Below are positions 29,901 to 61,100 of a stretch of 64,000 nt of DNA, piece by piece. This stretch comes from Xestospongia bergquistia (taxonomy: Eukaryota; Porifera; Demospongiae; Haplosclerida; Petrosiidae). A program made the position numbers and the translations under genes. Within the stretch, counting starts at the first letter, position 1. Each line of letters begins with the position of its first letter. The stretch is from contig OZ014413.1 in NCBI GenBank assembly GCA_963965975.1, forward strand, positions 436,501 through 500,500, read 5' to 3'. Below the pieces are notes generated by a model, which had not been told where the DNA came from, searched no databases, and was given only the letters and a program-made list of their open reading frames with translations.

Positions 29901-32900
29901 TTGAGCAGTAGATGATGTTACAGTTAATAACAATGAGGAAACTCCTTTCATTAGAAGCTATAATTAATAAATACACAAGAATGGATAAAAAAATGGATGA
30001 ATGGAGTAATACCTCCTCTCTGCTGTATACTCCTGGTTTTCCCATAGCAACCAGAGGTACTCGTTGACAACAAGCTTGTTCCCTTGCTCGTAATATAGTC
30101 CCTTCCTGTCGATGTACCTCTTTCCCCGGAGTCCTGACGATAAGGGGAAGGGGTAGTTCCTCTTTTTCAGTTATTGTATGAGTTAATCTACTACTGTTGA
30201 GAGTGTCCTGACTTAATGTAGGATCAGTAAAGTCATCAAGTTGACTAAGGGTAAGATGAAGTGGAGATATGGGAGGAGAAGAGTCACGTCGCTCTTTGGG
30301 GGTGTGGTCTTGCTTACGTAAACTACCTTTCCATACTGGAGTGAATGATTTAGGACGATGGTATCCTGTGACAACCATATCAGATGAACCAGTATGACCA
30401 GTTTTTTGAAACCTGTTTATGTGAATAGTTAACAATGAATATGATAGCTAGTACCACTGACTTCAGGTGATTGGGTGTGATTATTGTTGTGGGTGTGGTC
30501 TCCATTGAGTTGTACTTGCTCTTCTTAGCAGTCAACTGACGTCTTGACTTTCTATCCAATAAAATGGCTGGAAAATTAATTAAATGAGTGGGTGTTATAT
30601 TATCATTCTTACCATCAGGATTAGAAATTAATCCTTTCTTTAGACCACGCCTACTTGAATGTCCTACACGTAATAGTATTATATATTAATAATAATAATA
30701 TGATACCTTTATTAGTAGTGGGTGTGGTTAGTAGATCATCTTTATCATTCAAAGTTCTGGAATTATCTGATAAATTATTTTGCTGACAAGATGACGTGGT
30801 TAGTGAATTTTCTAAGGTTTGTTCAGATATTGTAATGCTGTCATTGCCAGTTGCTGTAAAACTCAGTTGATGAGGAGGAGTGGTCAATGTGTTCCTTACT
30901 TCCTTTAGAGCTTGTTCAGAAATTAGAATGTTTCTACCACCTGCTGTCGTAAAACTGAACTGATGAGGAGGTGTGGTCAACACAGACCTTGCCTCATTTA
31001 AAGCTTGTTCAGATACATTGGCTTCTTTACCACCTGCTGTTGTAAAATGTAGTTGATGAGGAGGTGTGGTCAATACAGACCTTGCTTCTTCTAAAGCTTG
31101 TTCAGATATCTTAACTTCTTTTCCACCAGCTGTCGTAAAACCTAGTTGATGAGGAGGTGTGGTCAATACAGACCTTGCTTCTTCTAAAGCTTGTTCAGAT
31201 ATCTTAACTTCTTTTCCACCAGCTGTCGTAAAACCTAGTTGATGAGGAGGTGTGGTCAATACAGACCTTGCTTCTTCTAAAGCTTGTTCAGATATCTTAA
31301 CTTCTTTTCCACCTGCTGTCGTAAAACCTAGTTGATGAGGAGGTGTGGTCAATACAGACCTTGCTTCTTCTAAAGCTTGTTCAGATATCTTAACTTCTTT
31401 ACCACCTGCTGTCGTAAAACCTAGCTGATGAGGAGGTGCGGTCAATACAGACCTTACTTCTTCTAAAGCTTGTTCAGATATCTTAACTTCTTTTCCACCA
31501 GCTGTCGTAAAACCTAGTCGATGAGGAGGTGTGTTCAATACAGACCTTGCTTCTTTTAAAGCTTGTTCAGATATCTTAACTTCTTTTCCACCAGCTGTCG
31601 TAAAACCTAGTTGATGAGGAGGTGTGGTCAATACAGACCTTGCTTCTTCTAAAGCTTGTTCAGATATTTTAACTTCTTTTCCACCAGCTGTCGTAAAACC
31701 CAGTTGATGAGGAGGTGTGGTCAATGTATTTATTGGCTCACATGGTGTATCATTTTCAGTAAACTTTGTAGTAGTGTTACGTAATGCATTATCAGATATA
31801 TGTATAGCTTGTCCACTAGCTGTATTAAAACCAATCATAGAAGTGGGAGGAGCAGGAGGTGTGGTCACTGTGGAAGTTGGTGGGAGTTCTACTTCACATA
31901 AAGTATCAAGATTGTGATGAGATGAATTATTTGGTAATGAAGGGTCAATCCCCTTTTTAGTACTAATAGAAGGTATCTGAGTAAAACGAGAAAACTCCTC
32001 CCAGTCAACATCCAGAGGTAAACCCTCTCCATCATCAACATTATTACTTCCACCTTGCTCCACTGTCAAGTCACATGACATAGGCTCCTCCTCCCAACCA
32101 TCAAACAATGACTTGGCATGATCTAATGCTTTCTTTGAAAATACTAGATCTTTACCAGAACCTGATTGAAAACCACAAGAAACTCCACCCACTTTATTAA
32201 TACCAATATTGGGAATATGTCTTGTAGATATACTAGGAGTTGAAGTGAAGTTAGGGTTAAAATTAGATAATATACGATCACGTGACTTTGTTTCTTCTTC
32301 TACACTGACTTCAGTTATTGGACGAGGGGGTTTGAAAGATGGGCGTGATCGACTCAAAGGAGTTTGAAATGCCTGGGTCTGTTCTCCTTTTGATAAAATA
32401 GGTGTGATTGCAGTGGGTGTGGTCTTGGTTTGTAGTTGTATTGGTGACATAGCAAGATCAGCAAGTTTGGGTTTTTTAATTGACGAGACTCTAGCCATTC
32501 CGGGTGGTCGTGGCCTTTTAAGGGGTGGGGCTGTCTTCAATAATTGAGTATTTGTTGGATATGTGAACTTTAAAGTCTCTTTACTTTGATTTACTGGTGA
32601 TTCCACGTTATTAAAGTGGGTGTGGTCTCCATCAACTATATTTAATGGACTACGTGTAACTATGTCCTTTGTTATTTGGGTGTGGTCAACAATACTACCA
32701 ATAGGGGAACTTCCTATAAATGTACTTTTGTTTTCCATATCTGATGGGATATCAAGCTTATTGATTAAGTGGGTGTGGTCATTACAATTCTGACCATCTT
32801 CAAAAGCATCAAGTTGACTATTACTCATAAACAATACATCAAGCGATAATGAGGTAGTAGTAGTAGTAGCCATTTTGTCTACACCTACTGTTGGAACTTG

Positions 32901-37920: not shown

Positions 37921-38067
37921 GTTTTAATGCTATTATTTTGACATTAAAAAGTTTATATTTCATAGTTTGTTTATATTGTTATTTATATATTTTTGTGTGA
38001 TTTACATTGCTACATACTGCAAAATGAATTACAAATTGTGTATATGGTCTACTACACATCTGTATTA

Positions 38068-38565
38068 GGTACTACATTATTAGATACTACATTATTAGGT
38101 ACTACATTATTAGATACTACATTATTAGGTACTACATTATTAGATACTACATTATTAGATACTACATTATTAGATACTACATTATTAGGTACTACATTAT
38201 TAGATACTACATTATTAGGTACTACATTATTAGGTACTACATTATTAGGTACTACATTATTAGATACTACATTATTAGGTACTACATTATTAGGTACTAC
38301 ATTATTAGATACTACATTATTATACTACATTATTAGGTACTACATTATTAGATACTACATTATTAGGTACTACATTATTAGATACTACATTATTAAATAC
38401 TACATTATTAGGTACTACATTATTAGATACTACATTATTAGGTACTACATTATTAGATACTACATTATTAGGTACTACATTATTAGATACTACATTATTA
38501 GATACTACATTATTAGATACTACATTATTAGGTACTACATTATTAGGTACTACATTAGGTAGCCC
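38068..38565. repeat. 15-bp minisatellite, about 33 copies
   Basis: The unit TACTACATTATTAGR, with R being A or G, repeats across about 500 bp, with one 5-bp-short unit near 38320. Related sequence (CTGGTAACA, AATGTTCCATAAAGGGAA) flanks it on both sides, at about 37530 and 38705, so it lies between direct repeats. Confidence 0.97.
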
Positions 38566-39148: not shown

Positions 39149-42100
39149 ATGGCAGTTGGAGGAAAATTAACGTGTTTTGACGACTTTTTGAACGATAAGC
39201 CAACTCTGTCTGAGTTATGTGAACATGTCACACTTGGTACTGACTGGTACGTGTTTGGTGTACTCCTCGAATTAGATAACACAAAGCTGGATGCTATCAG
39301 AGTAATGAATGAAGAGAATCCATATTTCAAAGCTACAAAAATGTTTGAATTATGGCTGGATACTAACCCAAAGTCTACAAGAAAGGAGATTCTAGAAACC
39401 CTGGAGAAACCTGCCATTGGTAAGAATGCAGTTGCTAAAGAATATAAGAAAGTAATAAAAGAAAGTAAGCATTCAGTTTGGTTGTTTAAATTTATTGCAA
39501 TGAAATATCATTAGTAATAGCGGTGCAAAAAGCAACAATAAATCAAATATTACAGACACATTCTGAAAGTCTTTCACACTTGGTTCTTCCAACTGATGTG
39601 ACTCAGACATTATATACAGAGGGAGTCATCTCTAAGGAGACGTTTGATGAAATCGAGACCTCAAGTGGATCTCTAGTTGGTGGTTCATTGAAAGCCTTGT
39701 CTAGTGATGCATCTGAAGATCCTAGCAAGTTGAGAACATTTGGTACTGTCTTATTACATTCAAGGGACACTGTAGATGTAGCAAAAGATATCCTCAAAGA
39801 TTATGGTAAGTGTTCATGGTTATAGAATATGTAATTGTTATAATCTTATGTTTAGACAAAAACTTTCCACAAGTATATGTATCTTCACCTCAAAAGCAAC
39901 CAGGTATAATCATTTTACTGGGTTTTTATTAAATATTGCAAAAACTAATAATCCTTCTTTTCTAGACACTACTGCTCTCGGCACTCCATTACAGAATACT
40001 GATGTGGCAATAACTAAAAGTTAGTGTTTTTGAGTCTTATGGAGTGATCAATATAATATACTATCAGGCAATGTAACAGAGGTCCATCTTGAACCTGAAT
40101 ATCAGTACAAACTTGATGAAATAAAAGGAAAATTGGGTAAACTTTTTCTTACTGTAACACATCTTATTGAATCTACTGTTGGATTTGAGCTCAAAGAGTT
40201 AAAAAGGTCTCTTCGATTGTCTTATCCAGAGTTAATACCTCAATTGTCTAAAGCTGAGTCAGTAGATGATGTTATGGACATAGTGCGTAAAAAATGTACC
40301 ATCATCAATATTGCCTGTTTGGAGGCTATTATCAATCATTGCAATATTGAAAGCGCCGAACAACATGTGACAGCTTACAAATCAGAAGTTGAAACATTCT
40401 GTGAGAAGGTCAAACTTAGTGTATGTAAAAATGAGAACTTCATAACCAGTTCATCCTCTCTACTGAAATGTGAGACTATTGAGTTTACACTAGAATGGAA
40501 TATAGATGAACACACACTTAGTGAAATTAAAGAGCTGTTATGGAAAGCGTTTGGAAAGATTGCTAAGAGAGTCTTAGTTAAAGTAGTAAATGAAATCAAC
40601 TCTATCATTGTAACCTGCTATGCTCCACGACATATAATGGATATTCTACTGATGGAAGCAGAGAAGAATCTTGACGTACTGAGGGGAATTGGATTAATGA
40701 AATTAACTATCGGCTATTGTACTGTTTGGGACATGACCACTAAAGATAAAGTAAGAGATGAGTAATAAATAGTATATATCTTTATAGTATATCTTCATAT
40801 TGATGTGTTGTTATAGTATGTAAAAGATCTTGAAGAAATGGTTATTGCACAAAGAAAGACATTAGCTGAGAATGATCAACTAATAATTGGATTGAAATCT
40901 TCTCTTGAAGGTACATTTGCTACTTTAGGATTTTTATAATAAAGCATGTATACTACTATCACTATTGTAATGTCTCTCTTTTAGTTACTACCAGTATGGA
41001 CAGTGAACAACAACAAGATCAATCATTAATTGACACTTTATCAGGTACATGTACATTAATTGAAATATAACTATGTACCTAATGTAAATATATAGAGAAG
41101 ATTAAACTATTGGAGAAAAAGAATAGAGCAAAGACATTTGACGTTGAGAAGTTAACCAGAGAGAAAGAAGGTGAGCTATAGTACTGTTAGTAGTACATAC
41201 CATATATGGTTATGTTCTATAGCTACTGATAAAGTATTAGTAGAGAAACAAGAAGAGATTGAGAAGTTGATCAAAGAGAAAGGTGAGCTATAGTACTGTT
41301 AGTAGTACATACTATATATGGTTATGTTCTATAGCTACTGATAAAGTATTAGTAGAGAAACAAGAAAAGATTGAGAAGTTGATCAGAGAGAAAGGTGAGC
41401 TATAGTACTGTTAGTAGTACATACTATATATGGTTATGTTCTATTGCTACTGATAAAGTATTAGTAGAGAAACAAAACAATAATTGTAAAATTGTTTTTG
41501 TAGTATCCTTATCCTTCTGATTAGTAAAGGTCAATTAATTTTATTAACTCTAATCATGAGTGCTATTACAATAGGTATGACTGATCGTGCTTGAAACAAA
41601 CTTCTTGCTAGTGCAAGTTTATGTCTCTGCCTATTTTTCTAACATTTCATAGCTATAGTCTTCCAGAGACACTGCTGCTAATTATACAATCTTTGTATAT
41701 CCCTAGACAGTGTTTCACTGTTAAGTTAGTATATTCCAAAACAATTATAGGATGAATAATATTTTTGTTTTAAATATTAATTATAATATTCATTATGTAG
41801 GAAAATGGTGGATCATGATAGCCTTTTCAATGTGTATACTACTATTGGGAATTGTTATTACTAACTTCACTATTACTGATGTAAAGAAAAGTAAGATGGC
41901 ACTCTAGACCCTAAAATGTCTACACATAATGAATGGATGGACAGATAATGAGTGCATGCATGCATATGGAAGAATGTGATATAGGACTCTTAAGACATAT
42001 TTCAACCTGGCATACACAATGTGCCACAAGGTTCTAAGATTATTTCGATGGTTTTGACCATAAATGTATGCATATATACATACATATATAAATATACATA

Positions 42101-43876
42101 TATATTACATTCTATAACTACTGATAAAGTATTAGTAGAGAAACAAGAAGAGATACTGTTGAAGAAGATAAAAACTTTACAACTAAGAAAGAAAGGTGAG
42201 CTATAGTACTGTTAGTAGTACATACCATATATGGTTATGTTCTATAGATACTGATAAAGTATTAGTAGAGATAAAACAAAACATTATGATGTTGACCAGA
42301 AAGAAAGAGGGTAAGCTATAGTACTGTTAGTAGTACACATACCATATATGGTTATGTTATATAGCTACTGATAAAGTATTAGTAGAGAAACAAGAAGAGA
42401 TTGAGAAGTTGACCAGGGAGAAAGAAGGTGAGTTATAGTACTGTTAGTAGTACATACTATATATGGTTATGTTCTATAGCTACTGATAAAGTATTAGTAG
42501 AGAAACAAAAAGAGATTGAGAAGTTGACCAGGGAGAAAGAAGGTAAGTTATAGTACTGTTAGTAGTACATACTATATATGGTTATGTTCTATAGCTACTG
42601 ATAAAGTATTAGTAGAGAAACAAAAAGAGATTGAGAAGTTGACCAGGGAGAAAGAAGGTAAGTTATAGTACAATTAGTAGTACATACCATATATGGTTAT
42701 GTTCTATAGCTACTGATAAAGTATTAGTAGAGAAACAAGAAGAGATTGAGAAGTTGACCAAAGAGAAAGAAGGTACTCAATGATGACATAACCATGTTGT
42801 TATTTTTTAAATACATAACAGATGCTAACGTACCATTGCTACTAGACAATTGGAAAGTATTAGAAAGTCCACCAGTTCAAACTGTTATGTCTAATTTTAA
42901 CTACTACATGAAAAGTGAAGAAGAGTGGTATAGTCCTAGTTTCCTCTCTCATACTAATGGCTATATAATGTGTGTTCGTATAGCAGCTAATGGTGAAGAT
43001 GAGGGACAAGGAACACATCTGAGTCTCTATATCCATCTAATGGCAGGTAAAAATGATGACAATTTGTCATGGCCATTTCAAGGAGAAGTAAAGGTTCAGC
43101 TCATCAATCATAGAGATGATCGTGATCACTATGAACAGAATATAGTGTTTGATGATTCCTCTAATGTACAAGCTTGTAGTCGAGTTATTAATGGTATTCC
43201 AGTTAAAGCTGGTCTAGCAAATAGAGTGGGTGAAGGTAAAGCTCTCTTTATTCATCATGATAAAGTTCAACTTAGTACTTCTGATGAACCTGAATATCTG
43301 AGATATGATAGCATTAAACTTTTCATCAAAGAGGTTATTGTCTATTCTTCTGACTTAGTACCCACTCCACATATTGAATCTTTGCCTGTTATTCACGATT
43401 TTGTAATCGAGAACTTTTCAAAGCGTAAACAATCTAATGAAGAATGCATCAGTGATCCATTTTATTCTCATGAAAATGGTTACAAATTGTCTCTTTATGT
43501 TTATCCCAATGGCAGAGATAAATGGATAAACAAGTACATCTCCATGTTTGTTCATCTCATGAAAGGTGAAAATGACAACAACTTAACATTTCCATTTCGT
43601 GGTAATATTCTTGTTCAAATTGTCAACTGGAGAGAAAACAAGAGTCATGCTGAACGACTTGTGGAATTTAATGACAAGACTGACCCAAGAGGAGAGTATG
43701 GGGCTCGTTTAACAGGATTAACTGGGTTCATCTCAGGAAGACAGTATCGAGGATACGGATATCCAAACTTTTTATCACATAATTTTTTAAAGTTTGATAA
43801 ATCACGTAATACTCAGTATGTTAGTGATGATGATACTCTTCATATTAGAATAATGAAAATAACACTTACTACTTGA
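39149..43876 (+). CDS. gene B: Death / CARD-like / TCYAPRHIM module / coiled coil / MATH-MATH protein
   Basis: Exons 39149-39464, 39521-39805, 39856-39903, 39966-40019, 40068-40750, 40817-40910, 40985-41044, 41096-41170, the coil array, and 42822-43876. Using the seven array exons with proper splice sites gives about 1,034 residues in one frame. Residues 1-105 are a Death domain (CFDDFLNDKPTLSELCEHV). About 106-200 is CARD-like (LYTEGVISKETFDEIE). About 235-462 is the shared module (TCYAPRHIMDILLMEAEKNL). About 463-683 is a charged coiled coil (VEKQEEIEKLTREKE). The last exon holds two MATH/TRAF-C domains, each with YSPSF or similar, then NGYxM/L and HLMxGxNDNxLxxPF. It resembles TRAF-type architecture (coiled-coil stalk plus MATH) with a death-fold front instead of RING. 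A trimeric or oligomeric signalling adaptor is inferred. Confidence 0.85.
41223..42772 (+). repeat. tandem array of coiled-coil mini-exons in gene B
   Basis: A unit of about 114 bp, an exon of 60-63 nt plus a ~52-nt intron, is repeated. Usable exons: 41223-41282, 41335-41394, 42248-42310, 42365-42427, 42480-42542, 42595-42657, 42710-42772. Each begins (A/D)TDKVLVEKQ and ends in EKE or similar, with phase 1 on both sides. Introns are almost identical (TATAGTACTGTTAGTAGTAC, then GGTTATGTTCTATAG). Two decayed units lie inside: near 41446 (acceptor AG changed to TG, exon truncated) and 42118-42195 (acceptor changed to AA). Genes C and D have one unit each. Confidence 0.93.
41801..41890 (+). CDS. 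candidate optional transmembrane exon within the gene B array
   Basis: Between the two halves of the coil array a 90-nt segment has AG before it and GTAAG after it. In the array's phase (1 on both sides) it reads without stops: K, then WWIMIAFSMCILLLGIVITN, then FTITDVKK. The 21-residue hydrophobic stretch is typical of a membrane span, and NFT right after it is a possible glycosylation sequon. Skipping or including it keeps the gene B frame. Usage is not shown; the acceptor has only a weak pyrimidine tract. Confidence 0.5.
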
Positions 43877-48500: not shown

Positions 48501-50710
48501 TTAGATATGTCAAAGAAGACAACTCTATCATTGTAACCTGCTATGCTCCACGACATATAATGGATATTCTACTGATGAAAGCTGAGAAGAATCTTGACCT
48601 ACTGAGGAGGAATGGAGTAATTAAATTAACTATTGGCTATCATATTATTTATGATGTAAGCACAAGAGATAAGTAGTACTAGATAATATATGTGTGTTGA
48701 TATATAGGAGGTGACAAAACTTGAGAAGGTACTCAAAGAAAAGTTGAACTCCAGTAAAGAAGAGAAAGAAAAAGACATAGATGATGTTAAAGGTAAGTTA
48801 TAATACTATAACTTATCAGCTACTATTGGTAAAAAACTAGAGCCTGTTAAACACAAGAGAGAAGGAGAGAAAAAGAAATTATCTACACAAAAAGAAGAGG
48901 AAGGTGTGACAAAGGAATAGATAAATAATATAATTATATATTTTATATCAAGATTAGTAATTCCATATGTGTAATGTTATATTTCCTCTCTTCTACATAC
49001 TATAGTATCTAGTAGTATGGACAGAGATGACCTGACTGGAGAGTCTTTGTCAGGTAAATACAATATAAATTGCAATGTAATTATATATTAACTGTGCATA
49101 GGAAAACTGAAACTATTAGATAGAATGAATAAGGCAAAGATATTAGAGATAGAGAAGTTAACAAGACATAAAGAAGGTAAGCTATAGTACTGTTAGTAGT
49201 ACATACCATATATGGTTATGTTCTATAGCTACTGATAAAGTATTAGTAGAGAAACAAGAAGAGATTGAGACACTTCAGAAAAAGATAACAAGTCTAAGTT
49301 TACAACTAATAGAGAAAAAAGGTGAGCTACAGTACTGTTAGTAGTGTTAGTATTACACTGTATACAAAACATGTATTTATTTGTAACTACAGAACATAAC
49401 TATATATATAGTATGTTCAGTAGCTCTAAAACATTCATGAAGAGATAAGTATAGACCTAAAGAAGATACTCTTTGTAGCACATATATCATCATCATCATG
49501 CACACATACATCATAGTGTGCCAACCATCATTGAAATATCCATTACTGTTAGTCCCATATTAGTTTTGTCTTCAGTTTCCCTTATATTTGTTTTCTAGTA
49601 TGTAAACAATAAAGAATAACATTTTACTCAATTTTGACATAAACCATGTTATTTTTTATTACATTAACAGATGCTAATATATCATTACTACATTACAATC
49701 GAAAAGTATTACAAAGTCCACCAGTTCAAACTGTTATGTCTAATTTTAACAGTTACAAGAATAGTGAAGAAGAGTGGTATAGTCCTAGTTTTCTCTCTCG
49801 TTCTAATGGCTATGAAATGTGCCTTCATATAGCAGCTAATGGTGAAGATGAGGGACAAGGAACACATCTGAGTCTCTACATCCATCTAATGGCAGGTAAA
49901 AATGATGACCTCTTGTCATGGCCATTTCGAGGAGAAGTAAAAGTTCAGCTCATTAATCGTAGAGATGATCGTGATCACTATGAACAGAATATAGTATTTG
50001 ATGATTCCTCTAATGTACAAGCTTGTAGTCAAGTTATTAATGGTATTCCAGTTAAAGCTGGTCTAGCAAATAGAGTGGGTGAAGGTAAAGCTCTCTTTAT
50101 TGGTCAAGACAAACTTCAGACCAATACATCTGACTTTCTAGAAGATGATAGCATTGTAATTTGTATTAAACAAGTAATCGTTCATTCATCACCATCTATA
50201 GTACCTTCAACATCAAGTGATCCCTTGCCTGTTCTTGACTTTATAATTGAGAACTTTTCAAAGCGTAAACAATCTAATGAAGAATGCATTAGTAAGCCAT
50301 TTCATTCTCATGAAAATGGTTACAAATTGTCTCTTTATGTTTATCCCAATGGCAGAGATAAATGGAAAAACAAATATGTCTCCATGTTTGTTCATCTTAT
50401 GAAAGGTGATAATGACAACAACTTATCATTTCCATTTCGTGGTGATATTCTTGTTCAAATTGTCAACTGGAGAGAGAACAAGAGTCATGCTGAACGACTT
50501 GTGGAATTTAATGAAAAGACTGACAGAGAATATGGGGCTCGTGTAACAGGACTGGTTGGGTTTTTGTCAGGGATACAGTATCGAGGATGTGGATTTCCAA
50601 ACTTTTTATCACATAAGTTTTTAAAGTTTGATGAATCACGTAATACTCAGTATGTTAGTGATGATGATACTCTACATGTTAGAATAATGAAAGTAACACT
50701 TACTACTTGA
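45552..50710 (+). pseudogene. gene C: gene-D-like death-fold / MATH gene with three lesions
   Basis: Exon order matches gene D. 45552-45879 is the N-terminal domain. 46227-47168 is the divergent module plus an ankyrin-like repeat (AKVGHVEATQFLLELGANID). 47239-47520 is Death, 47573-47850 CARD-like, 47898-47975 linker, 48030 to about 48672 the TCYAPRHIM module; small coil exons follow to 49319, then a MATH-MATH exon from 49671 or so to 50710. Three lesions against D: exon 2 (45936-46023) lost 8 bp and is 88 nt instead of 93; the CARD-like exon lost 1 nt near 47697 (278 against 279) and runs into a stop; about 13 bp are missing after 48671, removing the GTAAG donor so that the frame hits TAG. 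The first two could be avoided by skipping phase-1 exons; the third would cut off coil and MATH. The MATH exon itself stays open for 354 codons. Confidence 0.8.
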
Positions 50711-51100: not shown

Positions 51101-51231
51101 TATGGTCTATTAAGACAAAACCATTGATATATAGTTAGCAGTTCTTGATGTTGTATTTCAACATGAGAATTACTACAGAGACAACAATGATAGGAGAGAG
51201 AGAGAGAGAGACAATTATATAACAAGTGATA
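51101..51231. repeat. ~150-bp dispersed repeat, copy 2 (interrupted)
   Basis: Same family as 44073-44225. It stops at AACAAGTGAT, where a MATH tail fragment follows directly. Confidence 0.85.
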
Positions 51232-51430
51232 ATAAAAGACTGACAGAGAGTATGGGGCTCGTGTAACAGGACTAGTTGGGTTTTTGTCAGGGGTACAGTA
51301 TCGAGGATGTGGATTTCCGAACTTTTTATCACATAAGTTTTTAAAGTTTGATAAATCACAAAATACACAGTATGTTAGTGATGATGATACTCTACATGTT
51401 AGAATAATGAAAATAACACTTACTATTTGA
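51231..51430 (+). pseudogene. duplicated 3' tail of the MATH exon
   Basis: This encodes the end of the second MATH domain (GARVTGLVGFLSG, FPNFLSHKFLKFD, then QYVSDDDTLHVRIMKITL and a stop). It nearly matches 50520-50710, and its 3' UTR also follows, to about 51560. No upstream part exists. It is fused to copy 2 of the dispersed repeat. Confidence 0.9.
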
Positions 51431-51910
51431 GTAAAAGAGAATTTCACATAACAGTCAGCATAAAATAATGTCTATTACAATAACTAACTTTTTCCTATTA
51501 TATATTATATTGTTTTGTTATAGTTTTTCTTATGCTTATTAGTATTATAACAATTTTATTGAGACAGACATGTGACAGCCCATACTGCCCTGATTGAAGC
51601 TACTTGTGATACAATAGCAATTGATGACCATTCTAGATGAATGACCTGTAGCCAGTCTCTGCCCATGAGGCAGGGGGTTCCATCAATCAAGTATGACTTG
51701 AGCTATAACTCTACTTCCTATATCACATCATCAGATCACAAGACTAAGATCAATCAGTGCCTTTATCAAGATTATATTGATATTCATAGTTCATACAAAG
51801 CAGTCATTCTACTGTAATACATTTTATTGTGAATATTGCTTTAAAACACTATAGTCTTCTATACATATAATAACTAGTAATATAACTAGTGATTATTATC
51901 TGTAATGTGT

Positions 51911-58100: not shown

Positions 58101-61100
58101 AAGCAAAAAAAGCTGAGAACAGCAGTGCAGTTGAATTTCTTTCTAAATGGGGAAATCCACCAACTCCAAACACCTGTATTGGTAAGGTTTTACATAGCCA
58201 TTGTGATTATAATTTATAATTTATACATAATACATTTAGATATCAGTCAATTAGATGAGATACTGCAAATACTGAAAAAAAGTAATTTCTCTCCACAAAG
58301 CTGGTTTTCTCTTGGACTTAATCTCGGTCTTTCGAAACCAAGATTAAATTATATTGAAGCAGAGCACAATAAAAATGCATCTCAATGTCTACAAGAGTGC
58401 TTATCTCAATGGTTGAGTAAAGCTGACAAAGTGATTGAGAAAGGAGAACCAACATGGGACTCATTAGCTAGTGCTCTGAGGAATATTGGAGAAGTTGCTG
58501 CTGCTGAAAGCATTGAAATAAGTAAGAAGTTTATAATTTATAATATATTTTAACTTTTCTTTGTATTAAACAGAAATAGAACTTTCCCATCAAGCCTGTC
58601 AAATATTATTAAAACATTATGAAAAGCTTAGACAGCTTGTTCTTCCTGTGGAGATATTATATACAGAGGAAGTCATATCTAAGGAGATATTTCATGAAAT
58701 AAATAGATCAGGAGGTGTACTAGTCAATGATCAATTTAATGCACTATGTTCTATAGTGTCTGAGGACACTGAACAATTAAAACTATTTGCTAGTGTCTTA
58801 CTTCAATCAAAAGAAACAACACCTGTAGCTGAGTTTATGCTCCATGAATTAAGTAAGTAATAAGTGAACTTCATAGATCAAAATATGTTATATTTTATAG
58901 AATTATTTACTATACTACATCAATCTCAAATATCAGATATGTCTTCTATAAATGACCAAAAGACAGGAAAAGGTTTGTATTTACAACCTTTTAAAATTTT
59001 ATTATGTTTAATAATACAGAAACTACTTTTGATCAAATGCGAAAATCTTTTGGTATTCTTTTTAACACTATTGCTTGTCTCATTGAAGATAAAGTCCCTT
59101 CACTTAAAGACCTCAAAACTTATCTTCACATGTATTATAATGAACTGAGGCTTCAATTGGAATATGCTGAATCCTTTGAAGGAATCATGCTTATCATTAA
59201 AGACAAATGCACCATTATTGATATCGACTGCCTACAAACTGTTGTAAATCACTTTAATATTGAAGAAGCCAAAGATCATATAACAGATTATCAACAAGCA
59301 ATTGAAGAATTCTGTGAAGAGACTAAACTTAATGTTTGTTATAATGAGTGTTTCAATTCAACTAATTCTTCTCTTCTCAAATGTGAGACAATTGAGTTTG
59401 TTCTAGAGTGGAATGGAGATGAACACTCACTTAATGACATCAAAGTTTTGTTACAAAAGGCCTTTCAAGAGATGGCTAATAGAATTCAAGTTCGATACAT
59501 CAAAGAAGGCATTATTGTAACCTGCTATGCTCCACAACATATAATGAATATTCTACTGATGGAAACAGCGAAGATTCTTGACCAATTGAGGGGGAATGGA
59601 TTAATGAAATTAACTATTGGCCATCATATTGTTTATGATGTCTATGCTAGAGATAAGGTAAGAAATGAGTAGTACTAGATAATATGTGTGTATGTTGATA
59701 TATAGGAGGTGAGAGAGCTTGAGAAGGAAAATGCTCTACTCAAAGAAAAGTTGAACTCCAGTAAACAAGAAGAGGGAAAAGATGTAAATAATGTTAAAGG
59801 TAAGTTGAATGTATCTTTGAATATAAGTAATAATATCACATTTAAAATAATAGTTACTAGTGATGAAGAATTAGAACCTGTTAAATATAAGAGAAAGGAA
59901 GAGGAAAAGAATACACTAAAAGAAGTGGAAGGTAAAATAAAGGAGTACAGAAATAATATATATAATTTATATGATGATTAGTATAATTCCATATGTATAA
60001 TGTAATATTTCCTCTCTTCTATGTACTATAGTATCTAGTAGTATGGACAGACATGATCTGGTTGAGTCTTTGTCAGGTAAATACAGTGTGAATTATAATA
60101 CAATCATATATTAACTGTGTACAGAGAAGCTAAAACTATTGGAGAGAATGAATAAGGCAAAGACCTTAGAGATTGAGAAGTTATCCAGACAGAATAAAGA
60201 AGGTAATCTATAATACTGTTAGTGGTACATACCATATATGGTTATGTTCTATAGCTACTGATAAAGTATTAGTAGAGAAACAAGAAGAGATTGTGATACT
60301 TCAAGAAAAGATAACAAGACTAAATTTACAACTAATAGAGAAAAAAGGTGAGCTATAATATTTTTATATTACACTATGTACAAAACATGTATTTATTTGT
60401 AACTACTGAACATACCATATATATGGTATGTTCAGTAGTTCTAAAACAAACACGATAAGATAAATAAGTTAATGAATAAATCACTATTGATATAAATAGA
60501 GGACAAACTTAAGATGAAGCAATTAAAAATCAGACAAATGAAACAAAAAATTGAGTATTTGCTTTAACTGGTAGCTCTAATAATACATTTCTTTGTTACA
60601 GGTTCACGAGTACCATTACTGTATGATGGTTGGAAAGCAGAGTTACAGAGTCCACCAGTTCAAACTGTTATGTCTAATTTTAACTATTACAAGAATAGTG
60701 ATGAAGAGTGGTATAGTCCTAGTTTTCTCTCTCATAGTAATGGCTATCAAATGTGTGTTCGTATAGCAGCTAATGGTGAAGATGAGGGACAAGGAACACA
60801 TCTGAGTCTCTATATCCATCTAATGGCAGGTAAAAATGATGACAAGTTGTCATGGCCATTTCGAGGAGAAGTAAACATTCAACTCATTAATCATAGGGAT
60901 GATCATGATCACTATGAACAGAATATAGTGTTTGATGATTCCTCTAATGTACAAGCTTGTAGTCGAGTTATTAATGGTATTCCAGTCAAAGCTGGTCTAG
61001 CAAATAGAGTAGGTGAAGGTAAAGCTCTCTTTATTGGTCAAGACAAACTTCAGACCAGTACATCTGACTTTGTATGTGACAGTATTAAAATATGTATTAA

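Follow-up and report, generated by a model that had tools for sequence, protein, structure and literature searches.

Homology between paralogues switches at an array of symmetric mini-exons in a death-fold gene family of the sponge Xestospongia bergquistia

We analyzed a stretch of 64,000 nucleotides from the sponge Xestospongia bergquistia (GenBank assembly GCA_963965975.1; contig OZ014413.1, here C3, positions 436501–500500; hereafter the window). It contains a gene in which an array of near-identical mini-exons separates a death-fold N-terminal half from a C-terminal half with MATH domains. Searching the genome (146.5 Mb, 21 contigs), we observed that this array is an instance of an element that recurs across its gene family and that homology between paralogues switches at it: genes that match on one side of the array mostly do not match on the other. 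These results suggest, with reasonable probability, that the array is a phase-neutral junction for recombination, and at the same time a helical linker that connects an N-terminal half of death-fold/TRADD-N-like type to a C-terminal half that can be exchanged.

The repeated units of the array, each an exon with its intron, are found in many genes. A search of the genome with the DNA of the array returned at least 82 matches (40 of 476 candidates scored). Allowing up to three mismatches, a 24-base exon pattern matched the genome 259 times, relative to two matches for its reversed control, and a 33-base intron pattern was matched 227 times (none for its control), which indicates that these patterns do not recur by chance. 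We then surveyed 300.8 kb of DNA (39 pieces after merging), corresponding to part of the pattern-search matches, and identified 44 loci, each with between 1 and 20 unit positions (broken units counted); 37 of these loci are on contig C3. This set is what remains of 46 loci after removing two antisense false matches (C3_268683- and C3_281390-), and it includes loci with broken units. Because DNA from only part of the pattern matches was surveyed, the number of loci is a lower bound. The units located on contig C6 are more divergent (~21% in the intron).

Coupling between the two flanks was tested on the 23 of 44 loci whose arrays are flanked on either side by 1,400 bp or more (253 pairs), and flanks were considered homologous when at least 300 bp matched at 78% identity or more. 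With this threshold, 27 pairs matched on the left only, 17 on the right only and three on both sides. Based on 400-bp windows, coupling across the array was 5/51 (0.10), i.e., 46 of the 51 pairs were one-sided, relative to 0.44–0.71 at seven cuts on the left and 0.57–1.00 at five cuts on the right. Coupling was lowest at the array in each of 2,000 subsamples (15 loci; one setting), and six settings of threshold and window gave concordant results. Since the windows flanking the array are further apart than those at the other cuts, we ran a control with distant windows: coupling reached 0.43 (800 bp) and 0.36 (1,200 bp) on the left and 0.95 (800 bp) on the right, as compared with 0.10 at the array. 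The boundaries of the matches also fall there. Defining the inside of the array as at most 120 bp before the first unit to at most 130 bp past the start of the last unit in both loci (rows judged by reading), we found that 23 of 27 left-only matches enter the array and end there and that 13 of 17 right-only matches begin within it. The best left partner and the best right partner were different in 14 of the 19 loci with partners on both sides; four more loci lacked one.

Exchange is documented by a set of four genes on contig C3, in which two left halves and two right halves are combined in every possible way. Loci L017 (760 kb) and L018 (775 kb) have a common left half (77.0% identity), as do L019 (784 kb) and L025 (844 kb; 89.3%). 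On the right, L017 is paired with L025 (LRR type; 94.8%) and L018 with L019 (an unnamed module; 93.0%). The cross comparisons within the set gave 42.6–48.5%, which is the level of non-aligning DNA. BLAST (Basic Local Alignment Search Tool) placed the boundaries at or near the units: the match between L018 and L019 starts 20 bp before the first unit (1,913 columns; 91.0%), the match between L017 and L025 starts in unit-like sequence (2,176 columns; 93.5%) and the left-half match between L019 and L025 (3,256 columns; 86.2%) stops within the last unit of L019, after 41 bp.

We further compared the units themselves between genes, using 63-bp exons with a 52-bp intron only (17 of the 23 loci). Across the 112 pairs without flank homology at the above threshold, mean identity was 94.1% for exons and 95.1% for introns. 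Three of these genes, located up to 621 kb from each other and not all on the same strand, have an identical 115-bp unit; two of the three share a left class at a looser threshold. The recent exchange proposed in a preliminary description of this DNA is therefore backed by identical units within as well as between genes.

We take homologous (non-allelic) recombination as the best account of the switches, as their pattern suggests. Units of different genes would be similar enough, introns included, for a crossover or conversion to pair any two of them across genes. Because the exons are symmetric (phase 1 at either end) and the similarity extends to their introns, any such crossover would produce an in-frame chimera. 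The number of units would be altered simultaneously, and a change in stalk length would be a by-product. It is also possible, although we regard it as rather doubtful, that the array is an evolved recombination adaptor, i.e., that selection maintains the near-identity and phase neutrality of the units across dozens of death-domain genes so that N-terminal signaling halves can re-pair with C-terminal modules, perhaps still today, with individuals differing in their pairings.

The units show coding constraint. Using an intron profile, we cut the surveyed DNA into 168 internal exons, 163 of which are multiples of three: 63 bp (122 exons), 42 bp (20), 93 bp (8), 60 bp (5), 54 bp (4), 69 bp (2), 30 bp (1) and 135 bp (1). 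The two dominant lengths correspond to three and two heptads. The introns show no such preference for multiples of three (43 to 56 bp, plus three longer outliers). Among the five other exons, two of 62 bp are one-base boundary slips and really measure 63 bp, the 41-bp exon follows a dead acceptor, the acceptor of the 128-bp exon is AA and the 181-bp exon consists of two units whose intervening donor was lost. Across the 87 distinct 63-bp exons, none of 85 distinct changes creates a stop, relative to a mean of 8.05 when changes were simulated from the intron spectrum, and none of 5,000 simulations reached zero. Synonymous changes numbered 19 (simulated mean 19.0), and the pooled ratio of nonsynonymous to synonymous divergence (pN/pS) over all unit pairs was 0.66.

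Several loci present unusual arrays. The 18-exon array of L002 (C3:1017774–1019512) mixes 63-bp and 42-bp units, three of which have the acceptor AA; its sole frameshifted unit (41 bp) is among these three, as would be the case if the loss of symmetric exons did no harm. By eye, another Death-like segment follows an LRR open reading frame directly before this array (positions 2317–2706 of L049; C3:1016816–1017205). In L012 (C3:285614–286346), the succession of exon lengths (63, 54, 93, 63, 54, 93 and 63 bp) reveals a higher-order duplication of three units.

Several observations weigh against a role of the array as recombination junction. The contrast is weaker in the subset of 11 loci with short arrays, where two-sided matches account for 4 of 16 pairs. 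Exchange is not confined to the array, as there are further switch points on the left with coupling down to 0.44. Four of the 27 left-only matches end before the array, three of the 17 right-only matches start downstream of it and one upstream, and the best partner is the same on both sides in 5 of 19 loci. Nonsynonymous changes are not depleted in the units (66 distinct changes versus 57.5 expected), and one unit of L038, which lies outside the set of distinct 63-bp exons, contains a stop next to a frameshifted neighbor, suggesting that some loci are decaying. In addition, locus pairs are not independent and all results rest on the assembled DNA of one genome.

The preliminary description had interpreted the array as a coiled-coil stalk whose length could vary among isoforms and individuals. 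The 21 amino acids of a unit do amount to three heptads with near-invariant L6, I13 and L16 (retained in 86/87, 87/87 and 80/87 distinct units, respectively), but the 3.5-residue periodicity is not significant (1,403 of 5,000 shuffles were as strong). A coiled coil encoded by the units is plausible, and the units are presumably spliced in. The domain order, symmetric exons and recent exchange of that interpretation held, and unit number does vary between paralogous loci of this genome, but the interpretation missed the switch of paralogue homology at the array. It appears unlikely to us that the array exists for stalk variation by splicing or copy number and that the mixing of halves is incidental. 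The range of 1 to 20 unit positions per locus, the main exon lengths in whole heptads and the three conserved residues are in line with stalk tuning; the non-significant periodicity is not, and stalk tuning predicts neither the homology switch nor near-identical units among genes without flank homology. It is also compatible with a junction role rather than exclusive of it. Since paralogue homology switches at the array, the exchange of entire C-terminal halves is better supported than the tuning of stalk length.

Ordinary exon shuffling seems more clearly improbable. Under this scenario, non-homologous breaks fell in phase-1 introns, in-frame joins survived, and the array expanded separately without any guiding role. 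The weaker switch points on the left and the junctions of the gene model, nearly all phase 1, are consistent with it. However, breaks would then be expected anywhere in the flanking introns, yet all 27 left-only matches end at most 103 bp past the start of the last unit (23 within the array), and the near-identity of unit introns between genes is left unexplained. Finally, near-identical repeats are a common cause of assembly misjoins, but it is very improbable that the chimeras are such artefacts, as the arrays of the four-gene set measure only 115–345 bp from first to last unit start, which long reads would cross, and their matching halves differ by 5–7% on the right and 11–23% on the left, which indicates distinct copies.

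The nine exon–intron units of the window gene, described initially as ~114 bp long, repeat with a period of ~115 bp around a common core (AAAGTATTAGTAGAG) at positions 41231, 41343, 41455, 42126, 42256, 42373, 42488, 42603 and 42718. Two neighboring genes each have a single unit (cores at 49237 and 60263). Seven of the nine units present an AG acceptor and a GT donor, as had been proposed; the unit at 41447 has the acceptor TG and no recognizable donor, the unit at 42118 has the acceptor AA and the donor of the last intact unit (42710–42772) is weak (GTACTC). The seven intact exons measure 60 or 63 bp and are phase 1 at both ends, also in agreement with the preliminary description. Splicing 16 exons yields an open model of 1,034 amino acids, all introns of which are phase 1 except the phase-0 intron before 40817. 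Introns are as conserved as exons: site heterozygosity is 0.097 for introns and 0.089 for exons, and the p-distance within the array is 0.051 and 0.057, respectively. A structured intron was considered and rejected, as the 52-nt intron folds no better than shuffled sequences (z = +1.23). What had been reported as a single array does comprise nine units, but they form two sub-arrays (two and five intact units) with ~650 bp between them; Tandem Repeats Finder likewise returned two blocks, 41144–41475 (period 112) and 42186–42775 (period 115). The features, all on the forward strand (+), are as follows:

39149..39464 (+): first coding exon, Death domain (PF00531, E = 1.6e-6; exon model)
39521..39805 (+): second exon, weakly CARD-like (PF00619, E = 0.097, below cut-off; exon model)
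40068..40750 (+): large exon, helical part and TRADD-N-like alpha/beta part (PF13820, E = 0.069, below cut-off; b-a-b-b-a-b model; fold match not significant)
40817..40910 (+): small exon preceding the array; no other exon is entered in phase 0 (exon model)
41096..41170 (+): leader exon of the array, 3' end unit-like, phase 1-1 (exon model)
41223..41282 (+): intact unit exon, 60 bp (splice sites, exon model, intron profile)
41335..41394 (+): intact unit exon, 60 bp (splice sites, exon model, intron profile)
41447..41484 (+): broken unit, acceptor TG, divergent after ~38 bp (splice-site check)
41454..42100 (+): segment between the sub-arrays, like DNA of ZU5-like-type loci (74–77% over ~660 columns)
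41801..41890 (+): symmetric 90-bp exon within that segment, transmembrane-like (open, phase 1-1, splice sites intact)
42118..42195 (+): broken 78-bp unit with acceptor AA (splice-site check)
42248..42310 (+): intact unit exon, 63 bp (splice sites, exon model, intron profile)
42365..42427 (+): intact unit exon, 63 bp (splice sites, exon model, intron profile)
42480..42542 (+): intact unit exon, 63 bp (splice sites, exon model, intron profile)
42595..42657 (+): intact unit exon, 63 bp (splice sites, exon model, intron profile)
42710..42772 (+): last unit exon, 63 bp, donor GTACTC (exon model)
42822..43876 (+): terminal exon, two MATH domains, ends with the stop (PF21355, E = 8.3e-47; PF22486, E = 6.4e-42)
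49229..49321 (+): single 93-bp unit of the next MATH gene (splice-site check)
60255..60347 (+): single 93-bp unit of a further MATH gene (splice-site check)

The segment between the two sub-arrays matches loci at C3:954, 978, 1049 and 1085 kb (74–77%) and, in pieces, a locus at 307 kb; a ZU5-like exon lies downstream of the matching segment at 307, 954 and 1085 kb. The window gene has its best left-half match at C3:298 kb, in a locus with a different right half, and its best right-half match among its MATH neighbors. Judging from these matches, the window gene is a mosaic whose sub-arrays are split by DNA of another gene type. Six loci, including the window, present the transmembrane-like exon of this segment in an open frame with intact splice sites. 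We do not favor it as an alternative terminus, as none of the six has lost the donor of this exon. A seventh match (C3:838727) is out of frame, and a codon-position count on this exon was uninformative, as only one copy measures 90 bp.

The location of the array between death-fold and MATH parts was confirmed by Pfam in a scan of four exons of the window gene, with a Death domain at the N-terminus (28.6 bits; cut-off 22.6) and two MATH domains at the C-terminus. The match to TRADD-N was weak and below the threshold (13.4 bits; cut-off 22.5). The predicted structure of this part (mean predicted local distance difference test score of 74.9) presents the order b-a-b-b-a-b expected for TRADD-N, and its search against the folds of the Protein Data Bank (PDB) returned none at E ≤ 0.001, with weak matches to ACT domains. 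The assignment of this predicted domain to TRADD-N is weak. Among PDB entries, the MATH exon is similar to several TRAFs, including TRAF2 (best E = 1.3e-13). Neither RING nor immunoglobulin domains were among the Pfam matches of the four exons. Across the family, MATH, LRR, ZU5-like and one unnamed module are found behind the same kind of N-terminal half; the ZU5-like label refers to Pfam matches below cut-off (E = 0.0051 and 0.066). A label of CASP for the unnamed module, based on motif resemblance, was dropped, as neither Pfam nor a PDB sequence search supported it.

The nearest named relative of the gene model is LOC109587362 of Amphimedon queenslandica (34% identity), the only one at E ≤ 0.001 among 7,989 scored candidates. 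By eye, this protein presents about seven copies of a 10-residue KMKQDIQ-type unit between its TRADD-N-like and MATH parts. This different short repeat at the position of the array suggests that the position is repeat-prone.

Other repeats were observed in the window. A 15-bp tandem repeat (33 copies; 38063–38557) lies just upstream of the array gene. A 93-bp tandem repeat at 30856–31725 (9.4 copies; 92% matches) has a period of 31 codons and may be a protein repeat. By eye, positions 51220–51460 repeat the 3' part of the MATH exon that ends at 50710, apparently as a truncated duplicate.

In some invertebrates, death-fold adaptors form very large families whose C-termini vary, which raises the question of how such combinations arise. 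A concrete DNA feature at the switch point, together with a two-by-two set of genes that documents exchange, makes this question testable. The array suggests how genes that are probably immune-related might gain new domain combinations.

TRAF proteins carry a MATH domain with a coiled-coil stalk. The window gene resembles them in that its predicted helical stalk stands directly before a TRAF-like MATH exon, but it differs by its two MATH domains, its death-fold N-terminus and a stalk split into repeated symmetric exons. A second parallel is the NCOA6-clade expansion of TRADD-N proteins in Amphimedon, which is described, in the part of the source drawn on here, as 357 proteins with one to three death-fold domains, TRADD-N and a variable C-terminus that includes MATH and LRR (PMC8195603). 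The window gene likewise combines an N-terminal death fold with a variable C-terminal module, although its domain reaches the Pfam TRADD-N model only below cut-off. Together with this description, the domains of the window gene suggest a role in immune or cell-death signaling. In contrast to our analysis, the same part of that paper treats proteins only, with no exon array or exchange junction, and the paper contains 0 occurrences of "coiled coil". In the open-access literature, we found no description of such a mini-exon array in sponges.

The closest published parallel that we found is the chicken BG genes of the butyrophilin family. The sections of the source considered here describe an immune multigene cluster with 13–36 tiny in-frame exons per gene (21 or 24 nt) that encode a heptad coiled-coil region, and with hybrid genes with exchanged 5' and 3' ends (PMC4046983). 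As far as those sections go, the sponge family is similar in its arrays of tiny in-frame exons (163/168 multiples of three; 63 and 42 bp dominant) and in its hybrid genes (the two-by-two set; array coupling of 0.10). The mini-exons of BG genes encode the cytoplasmic tail, whereas the 63- or 42-bp phase 1-1 exons of the sponge stand between two domain halves; the exchanged parts are regulatory and 3' parts in BG genes but whole C-terminal modules (MATH, LRR, ZU5-like and unnamed), switched at the array, in the sponge. The proteins are unrelated, with no immunoglobulin V-like (B7/butyrophilin) domain in the four scanned sponge exons. The two systems therefore seem alike in their way of working, and the sponge genes do not appear to be BG members. 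The family of the sponge proteins seems to be one already described, and its array, for which we found no account in sponges, may represent a variant of BG-like behavior. Since neither the animals nor the proteins are related, this likeness hints that repeats of symmetric mini-exons for helical segments are a solution that recurs.

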